A DNA stretch of 38,001 nucleotides from a bacterium (lineage in GTDB: Bacteria; Sysuimicrobiota; Sysuimicrobiia; Sysuimicrobiales; Segetimicrobiaceae), in assembly GCA_035308905.1 (NCBI GenBank), contig DATGFS010000061.1, positions 1 to 38,001 on the forward strand, in the 5' to 3' direction. The first letter of the stretch is position 1. Each line of letters starts with the position of its first letter. Shown here piece after piece: positions 19,439 to 37,013 of this stretch. The translations under genes were made by a program, and so were the position numbers. The notes beneath the pieces are model-generated. The model worked only from the letters and a program-made list of their open reading frames with translations. It was not told the origin of the DNA and searched no databases.

Positions 19439-19714
19439 TCAGTGCGGGTGCGTCGCGTCCCACTGCAGGGCCGCGGCGATATCGGCGCGGGCGCGCTGCA
19501 TCGACTCGATCGCGCGAATCCGGAGACCGCCGTAGTCCGCCTGGTCGTGCTGCAGCTGATCGATCAATCCCTCGAGCGCGCTCCGGACGTGGACGAGGTT
19601 GCGGGCGCTGCCGAATTCACTCCGTGTCGGCGGGACCTGCGCCATCGCGGCGCCTGCCGCCACCACGGTCGCGGCCATCCCGGCTGCTCCGGCGAGAAAC
19701 GTCTTGCGGGTCAT
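19439..19714 (-). CDS. small secreted protein of unknown function
   Basis: 91 residues from ATG 19714, with GGAGGTG 8 nt upstream. The first 26 residues are a signal peptide (MTRKTFLAGAAGMAATVVAA region) ending AAMA; the start TRKTFL resembles a Tat signal with a lysine in place of the second arginine. The mature 65 residues are helical and carry SALEGLIDQLQHDQADYGG and ESMQRARADIAAAL. No family recognised. Confidence 0.65.
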   Translation of the reverse strand: MTRKTFLAGAAGMAATVVAAGAAMAQVPPTRSEFGSARNLVHVRSALEGLIDQLQHDQADYGGLRIRAIESMQRARADIAAALQWDATHPH

Positions 19715-19867
19715 GATCGCGTCACCTCCGATGTACTTCCCGAGCCGCCTGCTGTATCGCATATAGCGCCCGACGGGGGCGCCAAGTTCCCAGCAGGCGT
19801 GGGATATCGGACGTCCGGCGGGCGGTCGCGGTCGGACGGCGCCTCGGCGTGAACGCCCTGCAGTAAC

Positions 19868-31814: not shown

Positions 31815-32618
31815 CTACCCGCCGGTGTGGGCGGCCTGCGCGGGCTTCGCCGCCGCCGGCCGGATGAAGATGCGGCAGAGCACGATGCTGAACTCGTACA
31901 GGAGGGCCATCGGCACCGCGACGAGCATCATCGTGACCGGGCTCCAGTCCGGGGTGCCGAAAACCGCGATCGCGGCGATGACCATGTAGGCGATGCGCCA
32001 CTCCCGGCGCAGCGTCTGCGGGGTGACGAGCCCGAGCATCGCGAGCGAGAGGATGACGAGCGGCGTCTCGAACGTCCCGCCGACGATGAGGAGAAAGAAC
32101 AGGACGTACGAGATGTAGGCGTTCGCCGTCAGCAGCACGTTGAACTGGCCGCCGGCCTGGGCGAGGAGCCAGCGGGTGCTGATCGGCAGGACGAAGACGT
32201 AGCCGAAGACGAGCCCGATCGCAAAGAGCACCCCCGCGAGCAGCGCGAGGGGGATGGTCCGGCGACGCTCGTTCTCGGTGAGGGCCGGCGAGATGAAGGC
32301 GTAGACCTGATACATGATCCACGGCATGCTGACGGCGAGGCCGAACAGAAACGCGATCTTCACCTTGACGAGAAACGGCTCCAGCACGGTCAGCGTCGTC
32401 AGCTTCATGTGCCCCGTGGGCCGCAGCAGCAGCGTGAGGAGCGGGTCCACGAAGATGAAGCCGGCAAGCGTCGCCACGAGCAGGCCGATGACGGAGCGGG
32501 TCAGCCGGACCCGCAGCTCCTCGAGATGCTCGATGAGCGTCATCGGCCGATCGCGCGGGGTGTCGGATCGCTCGTCCATCACGTCGGTCCTAGATTCGTC
32601 GCGGACGGCCGCGCTCAT
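31815..32618 (-). CDS. tatC: Sec-independent translocase subunit TatC
   Basis: 267 residues, six membrane spans. The N-terminal signature HLEELRVRLTRSV is the twin-arginine recognition region, and LEPFLVKVKIAFLFGLAVSMPW and FSPALTENERR-like (ISPALTENERRR) follow. Charged tail at the end. ATG at 32618 overlaps the preceding deacetylase stop (ATGA). TatA is not in this window. It is the last gene of the sigma-factor operon, which may tie Tat capacity to envelope stress (inference). Confidence 0.95.
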   Translation of the reverse strand: MSAAVRDESRTDVMDERSDTPRDRPMTLIEHLEELRVRLTRSVIGLLVATLAGFIFVDPLLTLLLRPTGHMKLTTLTVLEPFLVKVKIAFLFGLAVSMPWIMYQVYAFISPALTENERRRTIPLALLAGVLFAIGLVFGYVFVLPISTRWLLAQAGGQFNVLLTANAYISYVLFFLLIVGGTFETPLVILSLAMLGLVTPQTLRREWRIAYMVIAAIAVFGTPDWSPVTMMLVAVPMALLYEFSIVLCRIFIRPAAAKPAQAAHTGG

Positions 32619-35146
32619 TCCGCGTCCCGCGCAAGCTGGGAGACGGTCACGAGCGTGTACCCGCGCCGCCGCAGCTCCACGACGATCGCCGGCAGCGCGC
32701 GAACGGTATTGAGCGTGCCGTTGTGCATCAGCACGATCGCGCCCGGCTCCGCGCGCGCCAGCACGCGCTCGACGAGGATGCGGAACGGCGGCAGCGACCA
32801 GTCGCCGGAGTTCGTCGTCCACATGGCCATCCCGAGGCCGAGCCGGCGGGCGTCCCCGGCGACGCCCGCGGTATAGTCCCCGCCGGGCGGCCGGAACCAC
32901 TCCGCGGGCCGGCCGGCCGTGCGGCCGATCACCGCCGCGCCGGCGGCGATCTCACTACGGGCGACGGCGTCGCCAACCGTGACCATGTTCGGATGGTGGT
33001 AGGTGTGGTCGCCGACCTCGTGGCCGTCCGCCGTCATCGCCCGGACGAGGTACGGGTAGGCGCGGGCGTGCTCGCCGATCACGAAGAACGTCGCGTGCGC
33101 GCCGTACCGGCGCAGCACGGCGAGGAGGAGCGGCGTCGCCAGCGGGCTCGGCCCGTCGTCGAAGGTGAGCGCGATCTCGCGGCGCCGGGGGTTGCCGCGC
33201 CACAGCATGCCGTCACTCGCCGCGCCGAAGAGCAGCCCCTCGAGCTGCACCTTCGTGTCGACGATGCGCTGGAGGAGCGTACCCTGAAACCGCTCCGCCG
33301 ACTCGTAGGTCCGATCACCCGGCAGCAGCACCGGCGCCCGCATGCCGGCCGACAGGTGCGGATCGTGCGGAACGGGCAGTCGCGGAACGAGCGCCCCCTC
33401 GAGCAGTTCGGGCGCAAACCACACGCTGCCCGCCGCGGAAAGCGCCTCGCGCGGGTCCCCGCCGGGCGTGGCCCCGAGCAGCCGCCCGGCATCGAGCGCG
33501 GCGGTCACCGTCACGTCGGTGCGGCGGCCGTCGAACCGGCCCGGCATTTGATAGTAGCCGCTCAGCGTGATCCGGTCCACGCGCGGATCGGCGCGCGCCG
33601 CCGCGGCCGCGAGCGCGCGCGCGGTCGCCGCCGCCTCGCGCACCATCGCCGCGGGCGTCGCCGCCCGGTCCATCCCGTAGACGAACCAGATCCACACCAG
33701 CCGCGAGAGCCGCCCGTCCGGCAGTTTGGTGACACCGTCGCTGGCAACCGTCACCTTCACGACGACCGGAGCGAGGCCTTGCTCGACGAAGGCCTGCCAG
33801 ATGCGTGTCTCTTCGGGGTGGATGCCGGGACCGATCGGATGGGTGTCGTTCGTGATGTAGGGCGACACGGGAACGGGGGGCACATCCGGCCACGCCGGGG
33901 CCGGATGCACGGGCGGCTGAGTCGCCGCTTCGGCGATCGCGGGCGCGAGGAGCGCGCGCAGCCACCCGGCGGCGCGGCCCGCAACGGCCGCCCGGAGCGC
34001 GGACATCGTGGTCATGGCCGCCGGCCGCTCTGATTCCACAGCGGCCCGTCGCGGGTCGACCGGCAGCAGGTCGGACGATCCGGCCGGCGGTACCGACCGT
34101 CCGACGCGCAGGAGCTCGTTCGACGCGATGTCCCCGACAAGCGTCATCGAGATGCCGTTGGTGTTCCAGTGGACCACGGTGGCGACGCCCCGCGTCTGCA
34201 CCGTGCCCTCGAAGGCGCCGATCTGCACGCGCTGCCCGCCGCCCGCGCCCACCTGCGCGCCGCGGCTCTCGAACAGGGTCATCGTCGCGACGCCGTCCGT
34301 GAAGGCGAACGTCGCCGTCGGCGTGCCGTGAATCATGGCGACGTTGGACCGCACAAACTGGTAGCCCGGCGGCAGGTAGGCCGGCAGCTGCGGGATGAAG
34401 CCGACCCGGCGGGAGATCTCCTCGATCGTCAGGGCGGCGGCCGGCGCCTGCTGGAGGCGGGTCTGGACCTGCGCCCCCGCGGGCGGCGACACGATGAAGA
34501 GGTCCGCCGCGAGCGTCGGGTTCAGCTGTACGCTGAGAAACGCCGAGGTCTCCCGCAGCGCTCCGGCCGGGCCGTAGCGCTCGAGCCGGAGGATCAGCCG
34601 CGTCTCCAGATCGATCCACAGCCGCAGGCGCGGCCGGCCGGGCAGGCGGCCCCGGATGTCGATGATCCGCGCGGGCCGGCCGGCGACACGCTCGGCGCCG
34701 GCAAACCGCACTTCGTAGTTCGCGGCGAGCTGCGGGAGAATTTGACGGATGAGCTCGTCCTCGTCGGTCTGGGGCGCCGGCCCCTCGACGTACCGGCCGC
34801 GTCCGGGCACGAACTCGATCTGTCGGCCGGCGTTGATCACCACCACGCGTTCCGGTTGATCGCCGGCGGCCAGATACTCCAGCCGTGTGCGGTCGGGCGC
34901 CTGATGGTAGATCCGTACCTCGGACGCGCGAACGGTTTGCGCCCAGACGGTGACGGTCTTGGTGCCGGTGTAACTCACGCCCCGCGGCGCGAGCGCGGCC
35001 TCGGTCAGCCAGCGGATCGGCTCCGGCTCGTCCGGCCCGGCGGGCGGCACGCCCGGCGCGCCCAGCGCGGCACCGTCCGGGACGATCGCGGCCAGCAGCG
35101 CACAGACCGCCAGGAGCACGATCCGGCGGCGGAGGCGAGGCGTCAT
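32615..35146 (-). CDS. RseB-like sensor fused to NodB polysaccharide deacetylase
   Basis: 843 residues, one uninterrupted frame. Signal peptide (core about 9-28). Residues about 42-235 match the LolA-like domain of MucB/RseB: VSYTGTKTV, RIYHQAPDRTRLEYL, RVAGRPARIIDIRG, LRLWIDLETRLILRLE. Residues about 250-360 match the RseB C-terminal domain: LPPGYQFV, FAFTDGVATMTLFESRG, and GDIASNELLRVGRS. A Pro/Ala-rich linker and an unrecognised domain (about 425-600) follow. The C-terminal NodB domain (about 655-840) has all catalytic motifs: TFDDGPS (661-), HTYHH (714-718), RPPGG (752-), SGDWSLP and LMHNG. ATG 35146 has AGAGG 4-5 nt upstream, just after the anti-sigma stop. RseB protects anti-sigma factors in known systems; the fusion is unusual. 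Confidence 0.88.
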   Translation of the reverse strand: MTPRLRRRIVLLAVCALLAAIVPDGAALGAPGVPPAGPDEPEPIRWLTEAALAPRGVSYTGTKTVTVWAQTVRASEVRIYHQAPDRTRLEYLAAGDQPERVVVINAGRQIEFVPGRGRYVEGPAPQTDEDELIRQILPQLAANYEVRFAGAERVAGRPARIIDIRGRLPGRPRLRLWIDLETRLILRLERYGPAGALRETSAFLSVQLNPTLAADLFIVSPPAGAQVQTRLQQAPAAALTIEEISRRVGFIPQLPAYLPPGYQFVRSNVAMIHGTPTATFAFTDGVATMTLFESRGAQVGAGGGQRVQIGAFEGTVQTRGVATVVHWNTNGISMTLVGDIASNELLRVGRSVPPAGSSDLLPVDPRRAAVESERPAAMTTMSALRAAVAGRAAGWLRALLAPAIAEAATQPPVHPAPAWPDVPPVPVSPYITNDTHPIGPGIHPEETRIWQAFVEQGLAPVVVKVTVASDGVTKLPDGRLSRLVWIWFVYGMDRAATPAAMVREAAATARALAAAAARADPRVDRITLSGYYQMPGRFDGRRTDVTVTAALDAGRLLGATPGGDPREALSAAGSVWFAPELLEGALVPRLPVPHDPHLSAGMRAPVLLPGDRTYESAERFQGTLLQRIVDTKVQLEGLLFGAASDGMLWRGNPRRREIALTFDDGPSPLATPLLLAVLRRYGAHATFFVIGEHARAYPYLVRAMTADGHEVGDHTYHHPNMVTVGDAVARSEIAAGAAVIGRTAGRPAEWFRPPGGDYTAGVAGDARRLGLGMAMWTTNSGDWSLPPFRILVERVLARAEPGAIVLMHNGTLNTVRALPAIVVELRRRGYTLVTVSQLARDAE

Positions 35147-35147
35147 G

Positions 35148-35651
35148 TTACCTCTGGACAGTCGACTCCGGAAGAGCCGTGTGGGCGATGACCGTTCGTG
35201 TCACGTCGTCGGTCAGGCGGTCGGACGACGTCATCAGATAGTTGCGCACGTACGCGTCCGGATCGAACAACGTCCCCCGCGGCGCAAAGAGTCCGGACAC
35301 CCATCCCATCGGCAGCCCAATAATGACCAGTATCGTCGCGCCGGCCAGGGCAACCCGCAGCGGCCGTGTCACGGCCGGGCGTGTCACCGCCGCCCACACC
35401 GCGCGCCACGGCGACGGCCGGAACGCGGCTTCCTCCCGGGCGAGGCGCCAGTGAATCCGGTCCTCGAGTCCGGACGGCGCCACCGGATCCGGCAGCGCGC
35501 GCAGCAGTGAGCGCAGCGTCCGCAGCTCCTCGTAGGCGCGGCCGCACGTCCCGCAGACCTCGAGGTGCGCCTGCACCTGCTCCAGATCTGACGCCGGCAG
35601 GGCGCCGTCGAGGTACGCGGAGAGGTGATCGGCAACGTGCGTGTGGTTCAC
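35148..35651 (-). CDS. zinc anti-sigma factor, membrane-bound (zf-HC2)
   Basis: 167 residues. The ZAS motif H29-x3-C33-x2-C36 (HLEVCGTC) marks the anti-sigma domain that holds the cognate ECF sigma factor inactive. One membrane helix at about 98-120 (RVALAGATILVIIGLPMGW). The outside segment (121-167) would be the site read by an RseB-like protein. ATG at 35651 overlaps the sigma stop (ATGA), and the stop precedes the RseB-NodB start by one base. This is the sigma-RseA-RseB order of envelope-stress operons. Confidence 0.9.
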   Translation of the reverse strand: MNHTHVADHLSAYLDGALPASDLEQVQAHLEVCGTCGRAYEELRTLRSLLRALPDPVAPSGLEDRIHWRLAREEAAFRPSPWRAVWAAVTRPAVTRPLRVALAGATILVIIGLPMGWVSGLFAPRGTLFDPDAYVRNYLMTSSDRLTDDVTRTVIAHTALPESTVQR

Positions 35652-36328
35652 CGCTCCCCTCCCCTCAGGTAGGGACGCAGCGCGGAGCGCAGCGCCTCGC
35701 GCGCCCGGTGCAGGCGCGATCGAACGGTTCCGACCGGACAGGCGGCCACCGCCGCGATTTCATCATACGAAAGTCCCTCGATATCCGCAAGGACGACGAC
35801 CGTCCGGAACTCCGGCGGCAGGCTCTCGAGCGCGGCCTGAATGGGGCCGTCGAGATCCCGCACCTCGGTGAGATGCTGCGGGTCCGTGTCCGAATCGCCG
35901 AGCCGCGCAAGCAGCGGATCGCCCTCCGGGGAGGTGGGCGCGTCGAAGGAGATCTCGGGCCGCCGGCCGCGCCGGCGGATCCAGTCGATGTGGGTGCGGT
36001 GCATGATCCGGTACACCCACCGGTCGAAGAACGTCCCCGGCTGATACCGGTCGAACGCCCGAAACGCCTCGGCCACCGCTTCCTGCATCAAATCTTCCGC
36101 GTCGTCGGCGTTGCCGGCCAGCCGATACGCCACCCGGTAGATGCTGCGGAAGTGGCGGTTCAGCAGTTCCTCAAATGCCGCCAGACGGTGCGCGCCGCTC
36201 TGACCGGCCTGCGCGCCGGCATCGATGACTCCACTCAGCGCCGATACGGCTTCCGTCACGTCGGGACCCCCGGCAGCGGTCTCTTTGTGAAGAGCGTTGC
36301 CGGACTCCCGGAAGTTCCCCTCAGGCAC
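35648..36328 (-). CDS. ECF sigma factor (RpoE-like)
   Basis: 226 residues. Region 2 (about 55-125): HFRSIYRVAYRLAGNADDAEDLMQEAV and WVYRIMHRTHIDWIRRR. Region 4 (about 165-220): LPPEFRTVVVLADIEGLSYDEIA followed by PVGTVRSRLHRAREALR, the -35 recognition helix-turn-helix. No region 1 or 3, as in group IV. A roughly 45-residue N-terminal extension precedes region 2. GTG at 36328 has GGGAGG 5 nt upstream and overlaps the pth end by 8 bp. Confidence 0.93.
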   Translation of the reverse strand: MPEGNFRESGNALHKETAAGGPDVTEAVSALSGVIDAGAQAGQSGAHRLAAFEELLNRHFRSIYRVAYRLAGNADDAEDLMQEAVAEAFRAFDRYQPGTFFDRWVYRIMHRTHIDWIRRRGRRPEISFDAPTSPEGDPLLARLGDSDTDPQHLTEVRDLDGPIQAALESLPPEFRTVVVLADIEGLSYDEIAAVAACPVGTVRSRLHRAREALRSALRPYLRGGER

Positions 36329-36965
36329 CCGCGCCTCCCGGGCGTCCCGGGGGTCCGCCCTGCCCGGCCGCGGCCTCGCGCGGCCGGCCCCCGGCCGCCG
36401 CAGTCTCCCGCACGTTGACCCGGTTCATCGCCGCCTCCAGGCCGTCGCTGACGACGGCCAGGGCGGCGTTGGCGGCGCGCTCGACGGCTTCGTCGATGAC
36501 GGTGCGCTCCTCCGGCGTAAAGCGCTCGAGCACGAACGTCTCCGGGGCTACGCCGGCCGGTGGACGGCCGATGCCGACCCGAAGCCGCGGAAAGTCCTTG
36601 GTGCCGAGCTCCTCGATGATCGAGCGGACGCCGTTGTGGCCGCCCGCGCCGTTGCCGGGCTTGAGCCGCAGCCGGCCGAGGGGCAGGTCGAGGTCGTCGT
36701 AGACGATCAACACATTCTCCGGACGAACGCGCCGGCGCCGCGAGAGGTCGGCCACGGCCTGGCCGCTCACGTTCATGTAGGTTTCCGGAACGGCGAGCAG
36801 CACCGCGGCTCTCCCGAAGTGGGCGCGCGCGGTCCGCGCGAAGCCGTCATCGGCCAGCCGCACGCCGAGTTTGGCGGCGACGCGGTCCACCACGTCGCCG
36901 CCGACGTTGTGCCGCGTGCCCCGATACCGGCGGCCCGGATTGCCGAGTCCCACGATGGCGATCAT
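36321..36965 (-). CDS. pth: peptidyl-tRNA hydrolase
   Basis: 214 residues. It begins IAIVGLGNPGRRY, with catalytic H19 in GTRHNVGG, YMNVSGQAV, and the DDLDLPLGRLRLKPGNG-plus-GGHNG loop. It releases tRNA from peptidyl-tRNA. ATG at 36965 is taken as start: it gives the canonical N-terminus, while the in-frame ATG at 36980 sits inside a hairpin arm. The C-terminus carries about 25 extra Gly/Ala/Pro residues and overlaps the sigma factor gene by 8 bp, so the sigma operon is joined to translation genes. Confidence 0.93.
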   Translation of the reverse strand: MIAIVGLGNPGRRYRGTRHNVGGDVVDRVAAKLGVRLADDGFARTARAHFGRAAVLLAVPETYMNVSGQAVADLSRRRRVRPENVLIVYDDLDLPLGRLRLKPGNGAGGHNGVRSIIEELGTKDFPRLRVGIGRPPAGVAPETFVLERFTPEERTVIDEAVERAANAALAVVSDGLEAAMNRVNVRETAAAGGRPREAAAGQGGPPGRPGGAGA

Positions 36966-36976
36966 CTCTCTACGTA

Positions 36977-37013
36977 GCATGAGGGGCGCGGCCCGATCCC
37001 ACGCCCCTCATGC
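36977..37013 (-). other. 12-bp perfect hairpin between rplY and pth
   Basis: GCATGAGGGGCG (36977-36988) pairs with CGCCCCTCATGC (37002-37013) around a 13-nt loop. No T-run follows, so it is not an ordinary terminator. It may control mRNA processing or pth translation. The pth ribosome binding region AGAGAG (36966-36971) lies just past the stem. Confidence 0.5.

Follow-up and report, generated by a model that had tools for sequence, protein, structure and literature searches.

The window, that is, the whole 38,001-nucleotide stretch of DNA that was analysed, carries a sigma factor gene, an anti-sigma factor gene and a gene in which an RseB-like sensor is joined to a polysaccharide deacetylase, an architecture that a preliminary description of the locus considered non-standard. 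This arrangement raises the question of whether the fusion is genuine and, if it is, what a sensor and a glycan-modifying enzyme might be doing in a single polypeptide. All of the genes concerned lie on the minus strand, in the order pth (36321..36980), ECF sigma factor (35648..36259), zf-HC2 anti-sigma factor (35148..35651), the 843-residue exported fusion (32615..35146) and tatC (31815..32618; PF00902, E 2e-58). The start of the anti-sigma gene overlaps the sigma stop codon by 4 nt, a single nucleotide separates the anti-sigma stop from the fusion start, and tatC overlaps the fusion stop codon by 4 nt; consequently, sigma, anti-sigma, fusion and tatC look like one translationally coupled unit. 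The operon originally proposed is thus present with all three of its genes and in addition runs on into tatC, which is found in the same order in those family members whose contig reaches that far. The flanking pth gene adjoins the sigma gene in the three genomes of the source's genus and lies kilobases away from it in the other genera of the Segetimicrobiaceae in which both genes were seen.

The product of the first gene of this unit is an ECF sigma factor, as had been described, with Pfam matches to both region 2 (Sigma70_r2, E 6e-17) and region 4 (r4_2, E 3e-17). The protein very likely begins at GTG 36259, which gives 203 aa, and not at 36328 as previously assigned, because the longer form would overlap a conserved promoter-like motif; furthermore, the N-terminus VTEAVSALSG aligns with the starts in relatives. 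The motif, GGGAACTT-N15-CGCT at 36293..36319 on the minus strand, is a putative ECF-type promoter located 33 nt upstream of the sigma gene. The pattern GGGAAC-N17-CGCT precedes the sigma gene in eight of ten family loci (it was not found in those of G001 and G003), which suggests that the sigma factor autoregulates its own operon. If so, the fusion is probably made under the envelope-stress alarm's own promoter.

A scan of 12 family genomes for this pattern gave 16 matches, compared with 3 for a reversed control pattern. As a means of defining a regulon, the motif was too weak, there being 10 matches outside the sigma loci in the 12 genomes versus the 3 of the control. A second exact copy in the window (19765-19791, minus strand) lies upstream of a small ORF, 19439-19720, encoding a 93-aa exported protein (MTRKTFLAGAAGMAATVVAAGAAMAQ) that has no Pfam match, and in G001 the motif is also found ahead of a protein similar to this one. 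In two other genomes (locus L116 of G006 and L117 of G003), it lies upstream of a large protein that starts MPSGL, is alike in both and by eye resembles a DUF1800 member. Upstream of sigma genes associated with the other RseB clade, GGAAC-N16to18-CGTA tends to replace the CGCT form (L074, L083, L084, L089, L094, L098, L099 and L104).

The 167-aa anti-sigma factor has a zf-HC2 zinc finger at residues 6-36 (E 5e-10) and one hydrophobic span at residues 100-118, in agreement with the single-span zinc-finger protein first proposed. Its outer tail, residues 119-167 (35151..35297, minus strand), contains the sequence DxDAYxRxYLxxS, which is well conserved among six family members. By analogy with RseA and MucA, this tail is a candidate for the segment that would be bound by RseB and cleaved by the site-1 protease. 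However, at 49 aa it is shorter than the periplasmic domains of RseA (97 residues) and MucA (89 residues) in the constructs used (PMC7400510), which weighs against reading the fusion as an RseB-type co-inhibitor. The same genome contains LpxC and Omp85 genes, which make a diderm envelope probable and a periplasmic location of the fusion the expected one. Genes for RseP-type M50 proteases are present as well.

The fusion begins with a signal peptide of about 30 residues (35057..35146), in which the hydrophobic stretch IVLLAVCALLA has a mean Kyte-Doolittle value of 3.27 over 11 residues and residues 3-21 are modelled as a helix. The RseB/MucB N-terminal, LolA-like domain follows at residues 44-214 (34505..35017), with a PF03888 (MucB_RseB) match of E 6e-17 and 62.2 bits against a cut-off of 22.3. 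The C-terminal RseB/MucB domain, at about residues 240-350 (34097..34429), falls below the Pfam cut-off (17 bits versus 30.1, E 0.0064), and this also counts against the co-inhibitor reading. Nevertheless, the domain was accepted as part of a two-domain fold spanning about residues 40-350, since phmmer aligns residues 38-356 with MucB (E 3e-10), the model has confident strands in this region, and the structural comparison agrees. The AlphaFold2 model of the whole fusion (mean pLDDT 83.5) matches RseB and MucB crystal structures in Foldseek at an E of about 5e-21 over roughly 320 aligned columns for RseB, with TM scores, normalised to the target, of 0.74-0.78 for most chains; LolA was matched too, more weakly than either. 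The assignment of both RseB domains in the preliminary description is thus upheld, the N-terminal one by profile and structure and the C-terminal one by phmmer and Foldseek.

Residues 351-440 (33827..34096) form a variable linker of low model confidence, with lower identity than the folded domains and, in four ortholog pairs, mostly higher dN/dS. Ahead of the middle domain, the linker is rich in alanine and is modelled with a low-confidence helix, and most family members have an AEAA- or AQAA-like sequence just before the domain. Such a sequence would be in keeping with cleavage of the linker after export, in which case the fusion would be a convenience at the level of translation that yields separate RseB and deacetylase proteins. 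However, a fossil signal peptide at this junction, although suggestive by eye, was rejected, since shuffling of the nine members (p 0.04 to 0.9) showed the hydrophobic segment to exceed the expectation from composition in one of them only, and we regard processing of this kind as very doubtful.

The middle domain (MID; about residues 441-585, 33392..33826) is alpha+beta and belongs to no known family. Modelled alone in AlphaFold2, its core is confident, mostly above pLDDT 80, and yet it matches nothing in Pfam or among PDB sequences and has no counterpart in Foldseek at an E value of 0.001 or lower. It had been described simply as an unknown middle domain; the lack of a recognisable family stands, but the domain can now be assigned, from its distribution, to the deacetylase, because MID and NodB occur together as separate exported proteins elsewhere in the order. 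Its occurrence with NodB in proteins that have no RseB half rules it out as a part of the sensor.

The final module, residues 650-839 (32630..33199), is a CE4/NodB polysaccharide deacetylase domain (Polysacc_deac_1, PF01522, residues 651-772, E 2e-33). All five CE4 motifs are present: TFDDGP (661-666), HTYHH (714-718), RPPGGDY (752-758), NSGDW (779-783) and LMHN (806-809). In the fourth, N stands in place of the first D of DxxDW and is conserved in fused members. The metal-binding triad D664, H714 and H718 and the presumed catalytic residues D663 and H808 are intact, so the enzyme is as complete as had been claimed. In NCBIfam, the deacetylase falls close to PdaB and NodB but below their cut-offs; the equivalog cut-offs for PdaB, PgdA and PdaA are missed, the best being TIGR02764 with 149.5 bits against 237.4. 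By analogy with other CE4 enzymes, the deacetylase probably acts on the glycan strands of peptidoglycan. However, its close structural neighbours in Foldseek (TM normalised to target 0.95 for 7fbw and 0.87 for 4l1g) include an acetylxylan esterase in addition to peptidoglycan deacetylases, which weighs against this choice of substrate.

Is the joining of these modules genuine? A whole-genome search found the fusion only in Candidatus Segetimicrobiaceae (phylum Sysuimicrobiota), a family of uncultured soil bacteria. It is an open frame before tatC in eight family genomes (G000, G002-G007 and G009), and four fragmented genomes agree, three being cut at contig ends (G001, G008 and G011) and one split by apparent frameshifts (G010). 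For four ortholog pairs, Nei-Gojobori dN/dS in the folded modules is 0.09-0.27. A sequencing or assembly artefact, which would have undone the original interpretation, is ruled out by the presence of the fusion in many assemblies together with this purifying selection. Among 291 sampled genomes, RseB-like matches outside the family were mostly in frames too short for a NodB domain, the longer frames not having been individually checked for one.

The order's other families encode RseB on its own, downstream of the sigma gene and, usually, of a recognised anti-sigma gene; at every examined locus with a full-length RseB half, there is a sigma gene nearby on the same strand, usually with a recognised anti-sigma gene between the two. 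Three genomes of another family (G018, G030 and G038) have the order sigma, anti-sigma, RseB, tatC, so the Segetimicrobiaceae deacetylase sits exactly where RseB and tatC meet. Standalone exported MID-NodB proteins are found in eight further genomes of the order, with three copies in G013, and no consistent promoter motif was seen upstream of their genes. One more was observed in a genome sampled outside the order (G088, L133, 2573-3832), so MID is not confined to it. Judged from these gene arrangements, the fusion is a joining of genes that are separate in sister families, and its restriction to one family bears out the view of the architecture as non-standard. A tree built from 36 RseB halves unites the fused ones in a single clade (100/99), and the fused NodB domains likewise group together (96/98). 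The simplest reading of these trees is a single fusion event. A literature search that covered few subscription papers found no paper describing an RseB-deacetylase fusion. Thus, as far as was found, RseB as the fused partner of a deacetylase is new, and the architecture, as far as the searches show, is a new one built of known parts.

The source genome also has a second sigma/anti-sigma/RseB operon, which lacks a deacetylase (G000 C59, L085, 6996-9933). Its existence, together with the resemblance of RseB folds to the lipoprotein carrier LolA, would fit a model in which the fused RseB half is a lipid- or glycan-binding domain that targets the deacetylase, and control of sigma falls to another RseB-like protein or to the anti-sigma factor by itself. 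This model is unlikely, however: wherever the contig of a family locus extends far enough, the fusion immediately follows a sigma/anti-sigma pair of its own, the tail of the neighbouring anti-sigma factor is conserved, and the RseB of the second operon falls in a different clade from the fused one.

If the RseB half does serve the adjacent anti-sigma factor, the two ends of the fusion might be truly coupled, such that the deacetylase is switched or moved elsewhere when the RseB pocket is occupied or when the fusion is released from the anti-sigma factor, or such that, as first suggested, the ligand is the substrate or product of the enzyme. That the family has retained the fusion, and that purifying selection acts on each of its three modules, speaks for such coupling, as does the finding that in two genomes outside the family (G028 and G031) an unfused MID-NodB gene already lies in the sigma/RseB cluster, upstream of the sigma gene and on the same strand. 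However, a long, variable and predicted flexible linker is what would be expected of modules that work independently, side by side, and the model has modest global confidence (pTM 0.56) and no reliable domain-domain interface. Coupling of this sort is consequently possible but improbable. The same tentative standing applies to a form of it in which the sensor is covalently its own effector: once RseB captures its ligand, the anti-sigma factor would be let go and the attached deacetylase simultaneously freed or activated; if true, an immediate enzymatic response would precede the transcriptional one.

Comparison with known systems helps to place the locus. Like E. coli RseA/RseB/sigma E and P. 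aeruginosa MucA/MucB/AlgU, it combines an ECF sigma factor, a single-span anti-sigma factor and a two-domain RseB in one operon, and the genome likewise has diderm envelope genes and an RseP-type protease gene. Unlike in those systems, the anti-sigma factor belongs to the zf-HC2 type and has an outer tail of 49 aa, and MID and a CE4 deacetylase are attached to RseB. An ECF sigma factor and an anti-sigma factor are also shared with C. difficile SigV/RsiV/PdaV, where the operon includes a peptidoglycan deacetylase, PdaV, that is controlled by SigV and answers envelope damage (PMC9044953, PMC5014341). In that Gram-positive host, however, sensing is done by RsiV, the anti-sigma factor, which binds lysozyme, and the deacetylase is a separate protein. 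In B. subtilis, the exported CE4 deacetylase PdaC has an N-terminal domain akin to the DUF4163/DUF3298 sensor domains of RsiV; these are not RseB, and none was found in the fusion. The standalone exported deacetylases of Sysuimicrobiota have the same MID and NodB in the same order but lack the RseB half and are usually not beside a sigma gene.

Taken together, these results favour, with a probability of about 0.6, a model in which the 843-residue protein acts in the periplasm as a co-inhibitor of the RseB type, permanently carries a CE4 deacetylase and is made under the sigma factor's own control. In P. aeruginosa, MucB keeps MucA safe from AlgW until lipid A brings about release (PMC7400510). 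Given this analogy, the RseB half should guard the anti-sigma tail, most likely by binding it and keeping the site-1 protease away. The RseB pocket would be filled by a ligand from the envelope, which by analogy could be lipid A or some other mislocalised amphiphile, whereupon the anti-sigma factor would be released and degraded and the freed sigma factor could transcribe its own operon. More fusion protein would then restore the inhibition and at the same time deliver more deacetylase, with peptidoglycan glycan strands as its probable target. Of this model, the analysis itself supplies the gene order, the domains with their predicted fold and intact catalytic residues, the conserved fusion and the promoter-like motif, whereas tail binding, ligand, protease relay, autoregulation and substrate are carried over from what is known of RseB/MucB and CE4 enzymes. 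Wall modification is a plausible output of such a circuit, since C. difficile already has a peptidoglycan deacetylase that counters lysozyme under the control of an ECF sigma factor (PMC9044953).

So far, RseB has been regarded as a co-inhibitor with a signalling role only. Its fusion, throughout a family, to an enzyme that modifies the wall links this sensor to a concrete output, with the sensor and the likely repair enzyme produced as one protein. The unfused relatives provide a natural before-and-after comparison, and the deacetylase-linked MID is a new family to characterise. For this largely uncultured diderm phylum, the fusion suggests that damage to the cell wall or to glycans forms part of the signal.
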